From a virus: a DNA stretch of 21,935 nucleotides. The stretch covers positions 1 through 21,935 of IMG/VR virus record IMGVR_UViG_3300025316_000074, one strand, 5' to 3'. Each line of letters opens with the position of its first letter. The stretch's first letter is position 1. Shown here one piece after another: positions 1,176 through 19,240 of the stretch. Position numbers and translations under genes: made by a program. The notes under the pieces are model-generated. The model was not told the DNA's origin, did no database searches, and saw nothing but the letters and a program-made list of their open reading frames with translations.

Positions 1176-1379
1176 ATGGCCGATCAAAAAGGCTTTCGTC
1201 AAACGTACCAAGAAACTGGCAAACTGTCCACAGGCGGTGGCCCAGATGCTAAAGTAGAAAAAGGAGCCTCCGGTTCTAAGCGCGCAAGCAACGCGGATCT
1301 AAAAGCACGCCCAGCACGTTCATCTAAAGTTGGACCAGATAAAAACCTAAAAGAAGTTAAAACAGGTAACTTTTATTAA
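1176..1379 (+). CDS. Small basic hypothetical protein (67 aa)
   Basis: A 67-residue Lys/Arg/Gly/Ser-rich protein with no membrane segment and no domain I recognise. The ATG lies one base after the portal stop codon and is preceded by AGGAG at 1165-1169 with six bases of spacing, so translation is well supported and coupled to the portal gene. The low-complexity basic middle (GASGSKR to PARSSKVGP) suggests a disordered protein that could bind nucleic acid or pack inside the head, but this is inference from composition only. The last codons overlap an AT-rich hairpin (stem 1352-1359 with 1367-1374). Confidence 0.75.
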   Translation: MADQKGFRQTYQETGKLSTGGGPDAKVEKGASGSKRASNADLKARPARSSKVGPDKNLKEVKTGNFY

Positions 1380-1635: not shown

Positions 1636-2079
1636 ATGGCAGCATTTGATGTTAGAGCAAAAGAAGAACCAGATACTAGATCCGAAGAAGAATGTTTCCC
1701 GGTTGTAGAGCATGGAACTGAAGTAGCTGGAGATAGAGTTTTAGTTCAACTAAGACGCCCTAAGACAGCAAGTAAAGGCGGGATCATCTTTGTAGATGAG
1801 ACCACACAAACGATTAAATTTAATGAGACTGTAGCTAAGGTTGTCCAGGTTGGACCTTTGGCATACCGAAACCTAGACGACTTAACCCCATGGATTGAAG
1901 GTCCTTGGTGTAAAGAAGGCGACTTGGTACGTACAATTAAGTACGGCGGCGACCGATTTGTGGTTGACGCAGGAGATGAGGGAGCACCCGTGGTGTTCAT
2001 TACCTTACAGGCCCGTGAAATTATCTCGCGCATTACGTCTTTCGAGGCTGCGCAACGGATGAAAGCGTTTGTGGACTAA
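1636..2079 (+). CDS. GroES-like co-chaperonin (Cpn10 fold)
   Basis: A 147-residue protein whose middle matches the Cpn10 barrel: GDRVLVQLRRP (about 32-42), a Gly-Gly mobile-loop segment SKGGIIFVDE (46-55), the VAKVVQVG strand (66-73), and EGDLVRTIKYGG (94-105). In GroES the hydrophobic tripeptide after Gly-Gly contacts GroEL; here it would be Ile-Ile-Phe at 50-52. Bacterial GroES is about 97 residues, so this one carries an acidic N-terminal extension of about 27 residues, an insert around PWIEGPWC, and a longer helical C-terminus. Phage T4 Gp31 is the known precedent for a phage co-chaperonin that adapts host GroEL to fold capsid protein, and this gene sits in the capsid block. A perfect AGGAGG at 1623-1628 fixes the start. 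Its 3' end is duplicated beyond the next gene. Confidence 0.85.
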   Translation: MAAFDVRAKEEPDTRSEEECFPVVEHGTEVAGDRVLVQLRRPKTASKGGIIFVDETTQTIKFNETVAKVVQVGPLAYRNLDDLTPWIEGPWCKEGDLVRTIKYGGDRFVVDAGDEGAPVVFITLQAREIISRITSFEAAQRMKAFVD

Positions 2080-2080
2080 C
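2062..2080 (+). repeat. Direct repeat A: 3' end of groES-like gene
   Basis: AAAGCGTTTGTGGACTAAC encodes the last five residues (KAFVD) and stop of the groES-like gene and ends directly before the ATG of the HNH gene. It matches the repeat at 2433-2451 at 17 of 19 positions. Confidence 0.75.
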
Positions 2081-2446
2081 ATGGCTTCAAATTTAGAAAC
2101 TCAACAAAAATACCGAAGTAAAACACCTAGGTATAGTATGTATCAAACGTTGAATCACGCTAAAAAAAGAGCTGAAGTAACAATTACAATTCAAGATTTA
2201 ATGGATATTTTTGAAAAGCAAAAAGGACTTTGTGCTTTAAGCAAAATAAAAATGACATGGCATCAAGGAAAAATTCTTCCAACATCAATATCAATTGATA
2301 GGATAGATAATAGTAAAGGTTACATTGAAAATAATGTTAGACTTGTTTGTGTAGTAATTAACGCTTTTAAAAGCACCCAAACTGATGCTGAACTTTATGA
2401 GTTTGCAAAAAGTTTAGTTGAAAATATGTCAAAAAGCGTTTGTTGA
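2081..2446 (+). CDS. HNH endonuclease (free-standing homing type)
   Basis: From the ATG at 2081 the protein has 121 residues. It carries a compact HNH core of the SIDRID type (residues 71-76: the first His position is Asp-Arg-x-Asp), followed by KGYIENNVRLVC (79-90) and a later Asn94, as in many free-standing phage HNH enzymes that nick or cut DNA near their own insertion site. A TTG at 2069 would extend it by four residues but overlaps the groES stop and has no ribosome site, so the ATG is preferred. The gene is visibly more AT-rich than its neighbours, interrupts a capsid-assembly block, and is bounded by a 19-base direct repeat, all consistent with lateral gain. Confidence 0.85.
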   Translation: MASNLETQQKYRSKTPRYSMYQTLNHAKKRAEVTITIQDLMDIFEKQKGLCALSKIKMTWHQGKILPTSISIDRIDNSKGYIENNVRLVCVVINAFKSTQTDAELYEFAKSLVENMSKSVC

Positions 2447-2451
2447 TTAAC
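2433..2451 (+). repeat. Direct repeat B: displaced groES 3' end
   Basis: AAAGCGTTTGTTGATTAAC overlaps the last codons of the HNH gene in another frame. Read in the groES frame it gives the same KAFVD plus stop as repeat A. The two differences are both third codon positions (GTG/GTT, GAC/GAT). Confidence 0.75.
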
Positions 2452-2473: not shown

Positions 2474-3460
2474 ATGGCAGAAAATGAAAAAGATGTTCCT
2501 ATTAAGGAACGCGAGGATGGTTCATTCCTTGCAAAGGTAGATTTTCCTGAAGAAATTGAGGACGAAGAAGCCAAAAAACCAAAAAAAGAAGAAGAAGAGC
2601 ATGACGAAGATGCTCAGGATAACGCAGAAGAAGATGCAAATGACGACGAAGATGCCGAATCTGATGAAGAACGCGAAAAAATCCGTGAGGCACGTCGTGA
2701 AGAGCGCAGACTTAAGAAAGATTTAAAGAGACAGCGCGATCTTACCTCTAAAAACAAGATTACAACGCTTGAACGCCGAAATGAAGAGCTTGCTCGACGT
2801 TTGGCTGCTGTAGAGAGCACCGCGGCATCATATCAGTTCGCACAAATCGACAAACAGGTGGAAGATGAAGCCACCCGCGTTGAATATGCCAAGATGAAGA
2901 TGTTGCAGGCGGCTCAAAACGGCGACGCGGCAGGTCAGGTAGAGTACTTGGAGCAGTTAACAGATGCCAAACAGCGTCTACAACAAGTACAGTACTACAA
3001 AAAACAACAACTCGAGCAGGCAAAGACACCTAAACAAAATGTGCCTAACGAGATCAGTACAGAGGTTCAAGCCAATGCAACAAAGTGGCTTAAAAAGAAC
3101 AACTGGTACGATCCGCAAGCTCGAGATACAGATAGTAGAATTGCCAAGGTAATAGATCAAGAACTCGCCACAGACGGATGGGATCCAAGTGACCCTGAGT
3201 ACTGGGATGAGTTAGATAGTCGTTTATCCGCACGTTTACCACACCGCTATACATCGCAAGGTGGAAAGCAAGCAAAGCGCTCAGCGGGCCCAACAGCCTC
3301 CAGCCGAGTAGCAAATGAATCAAGCGTTAAGCCAGGAACAATCACACTAAGCCGTGAGCGTGTACAGGCCATTAAAGACGCTGGTTCGTGGGACGATGTA
3401 ACTAAACGAAATAAAATGATCCGCGCATACGCCACGTATGACCGCGCTAATAAGGAATAA
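2474..3460 (+). CDS. Capsid scaffolding protein
   Basis: A 328-residue protein with a very acidic N-terminal third (long Glu/Asp runs around residues 25-70), then a charged helical coiled-coil zone (about 70-190) and a C-terminal part with WDPSDPEYWDELDSRL followed by a basic tail. This layout, together with the position between portal and major capsid genes, is characteristic of phage scaffold proteins, which guide coat assembly and then leave or are degraded. No protease domain is visible. The ATG at 2474 has only a weak purine-rich upstream stretch (AAAGAAAG); the original ribosome site may have been altered by the HNH insertion just upstream. The call rests on composition and gene order. 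Confidence 0.75.
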   Translation: MAENEKDVPIKEREDGSFLAKVDFPEEIEDEEAKKPKKEEEEHDEDAQDNAEEDANDDEDAESDEEREKIREARREERRLKKDLKRQRDLTSKNKITTLERRNEELARRLAAVESTAASYQFAQIDKQVEDEATRVEYAKMKMLQAAQNGDAAGQVEYLEQLTDAKQRLQQVQYYKKQQLEQAKTPKQNVPNEISTEVQANATKWLKKNNWYDPQARDTDSRIAKVIDQELATDGWDPSDPEYWDELDSRLSARLPHRYTSQGGKQAKRSAGPTASSRVANESSVKPGTITLSRERVQAIKDAGSWDDVTKRNKMIRAYATYDRANKE

Positions 3461-3465
3461 TTATC

Positions 3466-4023
3466 ATGGCAAATACAAGAATTAAACGTGACTTAGACGA
3501 CCGCATGGCTGACAGAGCACAAGAAGTAACCGAGCGCGCTACAACGGCCGCTCCTGATGACATTGCACGTCGTGAACGCCTTGATGCGTTTAGAGACAAG
3601 TGGGCAAATAGTGCGTTGCCAGATCTTCCAGGTGGCGTTATCCCTGGAATGCACTTATGTTGGTTGTCAACAACCAATACTTACGACAGTATCGACAAAC
3701 GTATGGCGTTGGGTTATGAGCCAGTTAAAGCCTCCGATCTCGGAAAAGGCTTTGAAGGACTAGGCAAAATGAGCTCCGGCAAGTTTGAAGGCTGTGTTAG
3801 TTGTAACGAAATGGTACTTTTTAAGTTACCAGAGGATATCTATCAAGAAGTAATGCGGATGCTCCATTTGGAAGATCCGCTTGAACATCAACGCAATATT
3901 ACAGCGCAGGTTCGCGACACAGCGCAAGGTAATAAAGGTGGACGTTCAGTTCTCGAGGGTGGTCTTTTGGAGATGGAAAAAGATACCGCAAAAGCGAATA
4001 ACAAAAACATTCGTTTCCAATAA
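3466..4023 (+). CDS. Conserved head-module protein of unknown function (185 aa)
   Basis: A soluble protein of 185 residues with a charged helical N-terminus (to about residue 45), a central part with PGMHLCWLSTTN, GYEPVKASDL and SCNEMVLFKLP, and a Gly/Lys-rich tail. I recognise this segment pattern from uncharacterised phage proteins encoded between scaffold and capsid genes, but no function is assigned. An AAGGAA ribosome site lies inside the end of the scaffold gene, five bases before whose stop-to-start gap this gene begins. A minor head or capsid-completion role is inferred from position. Confidence 0.7.
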   Translation: MANTRIKRDLDDRMADRAQEVTERATTAAPDDIARRERLDAFRDKWANSALPDLPGGVIPGMHLCWLSTTNTYDSIDKRMALGYEPVKASDLGKGFEGLGKMSSGKFEGCVSCNEMVLFKLPEDIYQEVMRMLHLEDPLEHQRNITAQVRDTAQGNKGGRSVLEGGLLEMEKDTAKANNKNIRFQ

Positions 4024-4056: not shown

Positions 4057-4731
4057 ATGTCCACAACATTTAATCCCTTTGGTCTGAAGCCAGTGTATCA
4101 TCCTAGCGGTCTTGATCGTGCAGTGCCATTCGTTGGCACCAACACATACAATCCCGGTACGACTTACACAGCTCCCTACTCGTTGTCTGGCGCGCAAGTT
4201 GCGTTTTACCAGTACACACCAGTGGCATTGACAGCTTCAGGTCAATTAACTGTAGCAGCACAAGCAGCATCTACAACTTCAATCAGCCGTGTTTATGGTG
4301 TGTTTGATGGCGTAGAGTACACAAACTCCGATGGTCGTCGTTCAGTAGCTAAGTATGCAACTAAGACAACTTTGGATGCGTCTACACAGATCATCTTCTG
4401 GATCTTTGCTGATCCTCAGTTGGTTTATGAAATCCAGTGCAATGGCTCAGTAACAACTGCAGCTATCGGTACACAATACAACTTTGACACAACTGCTGGC
4501 TCACTGGTAACTTCCGGTACAGCTATCGGTGTAGGTGGCGCAGGCTTCTCTACTACAGCTCTATTGGCAACTCCTGTTGCTGCTGGTGCACAAGGTCAAG
4601 TACGTGTTGTTGGATTAGGCCGTGAAGTAGCATACCCAGCAGGCAGCAACAATGCTTGGGGTGATACATACACGATTGTTCAAGTACAGATCGCAAACAA
4701 CATGTTTGCAGCCGCTTCGGTCTCGATCTAA
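4057..4731 (+). CDS. Capsid-associated structural protein, possible decoration protein
   Basis: A 224-residue Ser/Thr/Ala/Gly-rich, probably beta-rich protein beginning NPFGLKPVYHPSG and containing VYGVFDGVEYTNSDGRRSV and IIFWIFADPQLVYEIQ. Proteins with this beginning occur directly before major capsid genes in related phages as I recall them and are usually listed as virion structural. AAAGGAA lies upstream of the ATG and the gene ends 20 bases before the capsid start, so co-transcription is clear. A decoration or capsid-stabilising role is inferred; a minor coat protein is the alternative. Confidence 0.65.
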   Translation: MSTTFNPFGLKPVYHPSGLDRAVPFVGTNTYNPGTTYTAPYSLSGAQVAFYQYTPVALTASGQLTVAAQAASTTSISRVYGVFDGVEYTNSDGRRSVAKYATKTTLDASTQIIFWIFADPQLVYEIQCNGSVTTAAIGTQYNFDTTAGSLVTSGTAIGVGGAGFSTTALLATPVAAGAQGQVRVVGLGREVAYPAGSNNAWGDTYTIVQVQIANNMFAAASVSI

Positions 4732-5700: not shown

Positions 5701-5729
5701 AAAACCCGGCCCAAAAAGCTGGGTTTTTT
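5701..5729 (+). terminator. Intrinsic (Rho-independent) terminator after capsid gene
   Basis: AAAACCCGGC (5701-5710) pairs with GCTGGGTTTT (5718-5727), ten pairs with one G-T wobble and a seven-base CCAAAAA loop, followed by an uninterrupted T run to 5729. The run of T merges into the next promoter-like motif, so termination of the head block and re-initiation are superposed. Confidence 0.85.
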
Positions 5730-5751
5730 GCATTAATATATGTATGAAGAT
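5726..5751 (+). repeat. 26-base direct repeat, left copy flanking second HNH gene
   Basis: Matches 6232-6257 at 23 of 26 positions, running beyond the promoter-like core to the shared GAAGAT. The two copies are 506 bp apart and bracket the HNH gene. This copy lacks the GGGCGGAATA element seen upstream of the right copy. Confidence 0.6.
5727..5744 (+). promoter_or_regulatory. Promoter-like motif, copy 2 of 5
   Basis: Core TTTGCATTAATAT at 5727-5739, with TAATAT at 5734-5739 and the conserved downstream A at 5744. That A is the first base of the HNH start codon. It is the only copy without AATA upstream; the terminator hairpin occupies that place. Confidence 0.55.
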
Positions 5752-6214
5752 AGTTTCCAGACAACAAGCGATTGAAAAAAAATTAACCAGATATTTTACT
5801 GGTGAGCCCTGTAAACACGACCATGTTGCTGAACGTCTTTTAAGCAACAGAACTTGTATTGAATGTCAGCTTCCCCGAAAAAGAAACTGGAATAACAAAC
5901 CTGGAGTAAAAGAACAATCTATTGCCAGAGCGAACGCCCACAACAAAGCCCATCCAGAAATGCACTTAGCTCGTACACGTAAGCGTCAAGCTGCATTATT
6001 ACAAAGAGTTCCTAAATGGGACCCACACGCACACCTAATCATTGCCAAATATCAACTGGCCGCCATGCTCACTAAAGCCTCTGGCATCGTTCACCACATA
6101 GACCACATTATCCCACTTCAAGGCCGTAAAGTATCGGGCTTGCATGTCTTTTCTAACCTTAGGGTAATCCCGGGCTCAGATAACGTTAAAAAATCCAATA
6201 AGTTCTTAGTTTAG
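5744..6214 (+). CDS. HNH endonuclease with N-terminal zinc-ribbon-like Cys pairs (homing type)
   Basis: A 156-residue protein. The N-terminal RYFTGEPCKHDHVAER (16-31) followed by CIEC (38-41) gives a probable metal-binding ribbon. The C-terminal half has the HNH core: HHIDHIIPLQG (117-127), SGLHVFSNLRVI (131-142) and a final Asn147 with KKSN. This architecture is familiar from free-standing phage HNH endonucleases. The start has no Shine-Dalgarno sequence: the ATG directly follows the promoter-like motif, so translation is either leaderless or depends on read-through RNA. It is a lone gene between the capsid terminator and the next transcription unit, and is bracketed by direct repeats, which suggests mobility. 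Confidence 0.85.
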   Translation: MKIVSRQQAIEKKLTRYFTGEPCKHDHVAERLLSNRTCIECQLPRKRNWNNKPGVKEQSIARANAHNKAHPEMHLARTRKRQAALLQRVPKWDPHAHLIIAKYQLAAMLTKASGIVHHIDHIIPLQGRKVSGLHVFSNLRVIPGSDNVKKSNKFLV

Positions 6215-12756: not shown

Positions 12757-12911
12757 TGTACAAAAAAATCATGGCTCTATATCCTAGCCTTACACAACAG
12801 GATTTCTTGACTGTAATCACACTACAAAACGATTCAGATGGTAAAGGCGATTACATTGCTAAATGGGAACACCCTACACTAGCTAAACCAACAGATGAGG
12901 AACTTAAATAA
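12756..12911 (+). CDS. Small XkdW-like protein (51 aa)
   Basis: A 51-residue protein whose start overlaps the preceding stop (TAATG) and whose stop overlaps the next start in the same way. The pattern MYKKIMALYPSLTQQDF, LQNDSDGKGDYIAKW and PTDEEL matches my memory of the XkdW family: YP near the start, DF, an N-D-G turn, YI-x-x-W, and a terminal PT-x-E-E-L. XkdW was first named in the B. subtilis defective phage PBSX and is found beside tail-fibre genes; its function is not established, though a tail-assembly or fibre-attachment role is often supposed. It is short and easily missed by length cutoffs. Confidence 0.7.
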   Translation: MYKKIMALYPSLTQQDFLTVITLQNDSDGKGDYIAKWEHPTLAKPTDEELK

Positions 12912-13486
12912 TGGCAGGGGTTTACTGGATTGGCCTAGAAAACCATACTGACATTTTTAGTCAGGGTTATGTAGGCATATCCAGAGACCCAGAGATGCGT
13001 TGGAAGTATCACAGCAAGCGTAAAGAAAACTTTAATGTCCGCTATGCCATCCATAAGTTTGGCTGGGACAAGCTAGTTAAAAAGGTAATCATTGAGGCAG
13101 ATATTGATTACTGTTTAGAGATGGAAGCAAAGTTAAGACCAACGGAAAACATTGGTTGGAACATAGCAAAAGGCGGTGGTAAGCCACCAAACGTGCCTTG
13201 GAACAAAGGAGTACCCGCAGATCCAGCGCACATTAAAAGAATGAATAAAATCAGACTTAGCAAACCAAACCATCGTATTGGTGTGGTGCTATCTAACGAA
13301 ACAAAAGCAAAAATCGGTTTAGCTAACAGTGGTCGTAAGCACACCGCTGAGCATATAGAAAAATGCCGTATTGCCAAAATTGGTAAGAAACAAACCCTAT
13401 CAACTTGTCCGCATTGTAACAAAGTGGGCGGTTCACAGACCATGCCACGTTGGCATTTTGATAATTGTAAACAAAAAGGAATTTAA
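12911..13486 (+). CDS. GIY-YIG homing endonuclease with NUMOD3 and zinc finger
   Basis: A 191-residue protein with the order of domains of free-standing phage GIY-YIG enzymes (Seg/I-TevI type). The catalytic domain shows GVYWIGL (3-9) for GIY, GYVGIS (19-24) for YIG, Arg30 on the following helix, Glu72 as the metal-binding acid in EMEAKLRP, and GWNIAKGG (82-89). A NUMOD3-like DNA-binding stretch follows: LSNETKAKIGLANSGRKHT (127-145) and its helix-ending IGKK. The C-terminus has CPHC (166-169) with WHFDNC (181-186), a probable zinc finger. All key catalytic residues appear intact. It sits between an XkdW-like gene and a fibre gene, overlapping the former by one base, and is somewhat AT-rich. 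Confidence 0.88.
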   Translation: MAGVYWIGLENHTDIFSQGYVGISRDPEMRWKYHSKRKENFNVRYAIHKFGWDKLVKKVIIEADIDYCLEMEAKLRPTENIGWNIAKGGGKPPNVPWNKGVPADPAHIKRMNKIRLSKPNHRIGVVLSNETKAKIGLANSGRKHTAEHIEKCRIAKIGKKQTLSTCPHCNKVGGSQTMPRWHFDNCKQKGI

Positions 13487-18907: not shown

Positions 18908-19240
18908 ATGAAAGATTTCAAACAAACACCTAAGATGAATGCTGAAGGCAGCCATTATTGCAAAGGTGGCAAAGTTAAAAAAATGGCCGAAGGTGGTTCT
19001 TCTAGTGATATGGACTGGAGTAAAGCAAAACCAGTAGAAATGCCAGGAGCGCGTGGTGATGGTGGTACTAATGTTCCAGGTTTTGGAAAAGTAAAACCAG
19101 TATCAATGCCTGAAGGACGTGGTGGTGATGGTATTAATATTCCAGGGTTAGGAAAAGTAAAATCAGTACCAATGCCTTCCAATGGCAGGTCACAATTACT
19201 TAAAACTGGCGGAAAAGTAAAACGCGGAAATAAAAAATAA
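18908..19240 (+). CDS. Basic repeat protein related to its upstream neighbour (110 aa)
   Basis: A 110-residue basic protein beginning one base after the previous stop. The N-terminus MKDFKQTPKMNAEG resembles MDGFKTLPRYKAGG upstream, and CKGGKVKKMAEGG (18-30) resembles the neighbour's GGK box. Residues 41-84 are two tandem 22-residue units of the form KPV-x-MP-x-x-RG...PG-x-GKV, with a partial third unit to residue 90, and the end is again GGKVKRGNKK. No function is recognised. Its stop overlaps the next start (TAATG), placing it in the tail-completion operon. Confidence 0.7.
   Translation: MKDFKQTPKMNAEGSHYCKGGKVKKMAEGGSSSDMDWSKAKPVEMPGARGDGGTNVPGFGKVKPVSMPEGRGGDGINIPGLGKVKSVPMPSNGRSQLLKTGGKVKRGNKK
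19028..19177 (+). repeat. 66-bp in-frame tandem repeat (two units plus partial third)
   Basis: Units at 19028-19093 and 19094-19159, with a partial third unit at 19160-19177. Each starts AAACCAGTA or AAATCAGTA and ends GGAAAAGTA. The period is a whole number of codons, so unit gain or loss keeps the frame. Confidence 0.8.

Follow-up and report, generated by a model that had tools for sequence, protein, structure and literature searches.

The window, a 21,935-nucleotide stretch of viral DNA, carries an HNH endonuclease gene directly behind groES. We propose, with a probability of roughly 0.78, that this gene is of the free-standing homing type and resides at the very 3′ end of phage groES, where its target very probably lies as well. 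The gene stands between two near-identical copies of that end. The duplication itself is an atypical side effect of a single insertion; of more general relevance is the pairing of a phage homing gene with a groES end in recoded form. The features concerned are listed below.

1636–2079, + strand: groES-like co-chaperonin, 147 aa, host gene of the insertion (Pfam Cpn10, E = 2.5e-5; PHROG co-chaperonin GroES, E = 2.7e-7)
2022–2079, + strand: foreign, putatively co-converted groES 3′ tract of 58 bases, delimited by the divergence profile against relatives
2062–2080, + strand: copy A, the groES end that by our reading came with the HNH gene, encoding KAFVD-stop (repeat comparison, relatives)
2081–2446, + strand: HNH endonuclease gene, 121 aa, with a PacI-like core, candidate free-standing homing gene (PHROG endonuclease, E = 2e-22)
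2291–2362, + strand: HNH catalytic core, residues 71–94, SIDRIDNSKGY...NVRLVC...N (invariant residues, PacI profile)
2431–2435, + strand: right junction, an A-run marking the switch from HNH sequence to the resident groES end, with a 3-base overlap AAA at 2433–2435
2433–2451, + strand: copy B, the displaced resident groES end, identical to that of relatives L002, L004 and L008, which supplies the last codons and stop of the HNH gene
2452–2473, + strand: resident intergenic sequence, directly following groES in relatives without the HNH gene
2474–3460, + strand: downstream gene, 328 aa, assigned to a PHROG without known function, the right-flank marker in all lineages

The HNH protein matches the PacI profile (E = 2e-4), and Pfam returned no family for it. 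Residues D73, R74, D76, Y81, N85 and N94 are invariant across 20 HNH relatives, forming the core DR-D...GY...N...N. A structure model was weak (mean pLDDT 64) and gave no Foldseek match at E ≤ 0.001. Judging by dN/dS values of 0.09–0.21, the gene is under purifying selection. The position of the downstream gene (2474–3460) suggests a scaffold-like head gene.

Copy A (AAAGCGTTTGTGGACTAAC) and copy B (AAAGCGTTTGTTGATTAAC) are identical at 17 of 19 bases. Read in the groES frame, both spell AAA GCG TTT GTN GAY TAA (KAFVD-stop), and both mismatches occupy third codon positions, where they are silent. A first-pass annotation of the sequence had described this repeat, and it was confirmed by direct comparison and by a pattern search: the combined A/B pattern with up to three mismatches occurs twice in the window, against a chance mean of 0.04, and none of 100 shuffles reached two matches. 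This rarity, together with the homology seen in relatives, rules out a chance repeat. A chimeric assembly is unlikely, since a second IMG/VR contig near-identical to the window (L162) also has both junctions; the two contigs differ at three positions in the first ~7,750 bases, all within 3637–3645, and the remaining differences lie at the contig end. A search of IMG/VR for other double-ended alleles with the same codons and spacing returned only L162 and an unrelated non-coding repeat (L163). The HNH reading frame runs into copy B in a different frame and takes its final codons (..SVC) and TGA stop (2444–2446) from within the copy, so the earlier remark that the HNH gene could not need copy B was wrong. 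The window contains no tRNA gene, and hence nothing points to att-type integration.

Relatives of the groES gene were sought in IMG/VR, giving 80 loci. The ten nearest ones lacking the HNH gene (L002–L011) carry ATGAARGCGTTTGTTGATTAACTTTTGTAAAAAAGAAAGTATGTATGG, which corresponds to copy B joined to the sequence that follows position 2451 in the window. All ten agree with copy B at both differing sites, exactly as had been predicted for uninterrupted relatives; L012, slightly more distant, has GTA GAT at the corresponding place. The agreement of the ten identifies copy B as the old resident groES end. From 2433 onwards the window is identical to L002 for 76 bases, and the right flank shows a single mismatch in 120 bases from copy B, with no tract of change. 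The left side is altered abruptly. In comparison with L003 and L009, the window's groES has 4 differences in 385 positions as far as 2020 and 20 in the 59 from 2022 to the stop (Fisher p = 9e-16); against L002 the corresponding counts are 11/385 and 18/59 (p = 2e-10). The change is thus one-sided, with an abrupt left tract at 2022–2079 and a clean right flank. Judged by these comparisons, the converted 58-base tract, copy A included, arrived together with the HNH gene. When a donor of this tract was sought in IMG/VR, only the sister contig L162 was returned.

The two near-identical flanking copies would also be expected if the groES end had been duplicated in tandem within one genome and the HNH gene had inserted between the copies. 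This scenario is refuted by the asymmetry of the copies, copy A lying in a lineage-foreign tract of 58 bases and copy B being equal to the near relatives; in addition, none of the empty relatives compared carries two groES ends, and we assign the scenario almost no probability. As a separate observation, the 34.9-kb contig L013 stops inside groES at its position 4382 (window 2016–2017), just before the tract start at 2022, possibly because empty and occupied alleles coexist in the sampled population.

Occupation of this site recurs across phage lineages. In clade 1, the HNH gene is present in 9 of 65 groES clusters and absent from the other 56, and it always lies between the groES stop and the next gene. 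Further loci were found by HNH-based searches. An additional carrier at the groES site, L390, lies in an environmental beta-proteobacterium bin, and a distant clade (L167, L168, L169 and L310/L384), whose groES is ~45% identical, is also occupied by an HNH gene at the groES end. The site is occupied in at least ten phage lineages plus the distant clade, in a scattered pattern. One candidate, L381, was rejected as a second carrier of the L167 HNH gene, being an identical stretch in another contig from the same sample. Mapping occupancy onto the groES tree takes eight changes for nine occupied rows, whose clustering does not exceed that of shuffled labels (176/500). Distances between HNH genes are often smaller than those between the neighbouring groES genes (2% vs. 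11% for L164/L165; 15% vs. 28% for L040/L087). Presence or absence between conserved genes, recurrent gain and co-conversion of the flank (tract 2022–2079) are features of intronless homing, and all three are found here. Regarding gene ends in the distant phages, the groES stop overlaps the next start codon (GTATGA) in L167, L168, L169 and L384; in those with an HNH gene, groES ends in GTGTAATGG or similar, and the HNH gene's own end in L167, L168 and L384 is GTATGA.

Codon choice in occupied groES genes is no less typical than in empty ones, apart from the last six codons (0 of 2000 shuffles reached the observed value). The mean difference in surprise between occupied and empty alleles amounts to 1.81 bits for codons −8 to −3 and is near zero upstream. 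Empty tails are nearly fixed (AAA/AAG 56/56, TTT 56/56, TAA 56/56, GCG 41/56), whereas occupied tails use CGA/CGG, GCA/GCT, TTC and GTG. Alanine is encoded by GCA/GCT in 8/9 occupied vs. 3/56 empty alleles and valine by GTG in 7/9 vs. 4/56; lysine is replaced by arginine in 4/9 vs. 0/56, and TTC is used in 3/9 vs. 0/56 (Fisher p from 2e-3 to 3e-7, the counts being partly dependent because the occupied alleles share HNH ancestry). This contrast supports a putative mobile unit consisting of the recoded groES end and the HNH nuclease, and we infer that the recoding would alter the nuclease target. Copy A is the least recoded tail of the family. Its Lys, Ala and Phe codons are unchanged from the consensus, which makes it doubtful that the two silent changes confer protection, unless cutting also depends on upstream bases. 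Its GTG GAC TAA and the following ATGGCTTC are common to L082 and L390, the closest HNH relatives.

The same codon data bear on a passive alternative, in which the HNH enzyme cuts elsewhere or the gene spread by ordinary phage recombination, and the groES end is linked donor sequence with no protective role. There is much sequence exchange in these phages, for example 17–30% divergence from near relatives at 1101–1400. The target could also lie elsewhere, since the free-standing seg/mob enzymes of phage T4 mostly cut far from their own gene, often hundreds of bases or more away (PMC2988022). However, plain linkage would reach further upstream than the last six codons, to which the atypical codons are confined across independent lineages. 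Moreover, the groES tails do not track HNH relatedness (Spearman 0.19, on alignments), and exactly the same site is occupied in very distant phages. We therefore consider passive hitch-hiking improbable and retain homing to the groES end as the preferred reading.

At the right junction, the HNH gene of the window agrees with its sisters through ATG(G/T)CAAAAA and then changes to the resident end, with an overlap of three A. Elsewhere in clade 1, occupied alleles encode an HNH protein terminating in MAK..PN, and resident sequence picks up again at the groES stop, leaving a single groES end; the displaced old end present in the window is absent from them. The earlier proposal, insertion of an element supplying a recoded end, is upheld as to insertion at the groES end, the foreign origin of copy A and the recoding of the last six codons. 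The duplicated end, which it had taken for a general strategy, does not hold as a rule of the family, the window junction being atypical. On the right side of the HNH gene in clade-2 phage L167, TTTGTATGAGC remains from the resident end, a possible second, shorter case of a displaced end, although part of this stretch is also required for the start codon of the following gene.

It could be argued that the double end was primary in every insertion, upstream of KAFVD, and that in single-ended alleles the old tail decayed into the HNH codons K-T-L-P-N-stop. Consistent with such decay, the HNH stop of single-ended alleles sits at the groES stop position of empty ones, the tail of L083/L165 (AAAACGCTTCCAAAT) matches the groES tail at 10/15 positions, equalled by only 1–2 of 351 gene windows, and the right end retained by L167 resembles that of its empty relatives. 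Other sister tails, however, match the groES tail at just 6–9 of 15 positions, and sister elements of different lineages have the PN-stop ending in common. No coding remnant is left in L040, L050 and L165, where the resident flank begins at or inside the groES stop codon. On balance, a primary double end appears unlikely, and we favor closure at the groES stop as the usual outcome of homing.

Under the homing model, a mixed infection would expose an empty phage to the nuclease, which would cut its conserved groES tail, ATGAARGCGTTTGTAGATTAA. Double-strand-break repair would then proceed at the left end by homologous recombination with the groES of an occupied donor, converting the tract seen at 2022–2079, so that the protein ending is kept and its wording changed, and the HNH gene would be copied in. 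The right end would normally close at the groES stop, with loss of the old tail. In the window, a one-sided closure at the A-run, 18 bases earlier, may have left the old tail behind as copy B. The recoded or split target would presumably no longer be cut.

Other nuclease genes were also observed in the window and its relatives. An endonuclease VII-like HNH gene (5744–6214, 156 aa) lies behind the major capsid gene; it is absent in L002 and L011, and other relatives have different versions. It is flanked by TTTGCATTAATAT.. at 5727 and 6233, present as a single copy in the empty L002. A promoter-like motif, TTTGCATTAATATGTATA (+ strand), occurs at 1407, 5727, 6233, 17500 and 18063, mostly just ahead of genes (five matches with up to three mismatches in the window vs. 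0.06 expected). A GIY-YIG nuclease gene (12911–13486, 191 aa; PHROG homing endonuclease, E = 3e-18) is located between structural genes. Upstream of groES in relatives, small ORFs matching window 1176–1379 and 1418–1615 enclose an HNH-like gene of 141 aa with a HEVDHIVPL..-type motif (3329–3754 in both L011 and L013; 2004–2250 in L002, where it is broken). The window interval 1101–1400, with 17–30 differences per 100 bases from relatives otherwise 97–99% identical, surrounds the small ORF 1176–1379. An in-frame tandem repeat of 66 bases (19022–19177; 2.4 copies, 83% matches) is found in ORF 18908–19240.

The closest parallel is offered by the WHO elements of yeasts (Torulaspora/Lachancea), in which a nuclease gene is accompanied by an upstream, resistance-conferring 3′ end of FBA1; this end is replaced at each integration and the old end is pushed downstream, and both cleavage and allele-specific resistance have been demonstrated (Coughlan et al. 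2020, PMC7282813). As in WHO elements, a nuclease gene appears to travel with an upstream host-gene 3′ end in a differently worded allele, leaving the host protein intact, as the recoding of the last six codons and the foreign tract of the window indicate. The window also shares the displacement of the old end downstream of the nuclease gene, a trait normally absent in the phage family. WHO nucleases are HO-like LAGLIDADG enzymes residing at a yeast nuclear gene and replacing hundreds of bases, whereas the phage element, with its predicted cleavage and protection, encodes a PacI-like HNH enzyme assigned to HNH/endonuclease PHROGs and has a very short recoded end.

Mobile ORFs of fungal mitochondria, described for Allomyces atp6 and for Glomus atp6, atp9, cox2 and nad3 (PMC3630166), likewise combine a foreign C-terminus, an endonuclease ORF and a displaced native C-terminus in agreement with close relatives, and show silent differences; unlike the phage element, they involve LAGLIDADG or GIY-YIG enzymes, mitochondrial genes and much longer termini. 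The intronless homing of T4 seg/mob genes resembles the present case in that a free-standing phage nuclease gene occupies a gap between conserved genes and the flank is co-converted. Those enzymes, however, typically cut away from their own gene, and PMC2988022 describes no reworded neighbour end with a displaced old end. Homing of the T4 td intron with limited homology involves one-sided illegitimate repair with microhomology junctions (1999 work reviewed in PMC2988022). By this analogy, with homology on one side and a microhomology junction on the other, the window junction is as would be expected from one-sided, microhomology-closed repair, although td is a laboratory intron system and the window holds a natural allele of a free-standing gene. 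The open-licence literature searched yielded no phage example of a replaced and displaced gene end.

We lean towards the view that phages carry their own WHO-like class of homing elements, in which an HNH nuclease is coupled to the end of an important head-module gene in recoded, cleavage-resistant form, that end being rewritten at each jump and the old one occasionally stranded. If true, phages would have evolved host-gene end replacement on their own, using an unrelated nuclease and exchanging a very short end, and a link would exist between phage intronless homing, the WHO elements of yeast and the mobile ORFs of fungal mitochondria. It would provide a case from natural populations in which a selfish nuclease gene targets the coding sequence of an important gene and synonymous replacement avoids destroying that gene. 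The window itself represents an apparently recent one-sided insertion whose junction is readable to the base. The codon contrast between occupied and empty alleles points to ATGAARGCGTTTGTAGATTAA as the likely recognition sequence at codon resolution, making both cutting and protection directly testable.
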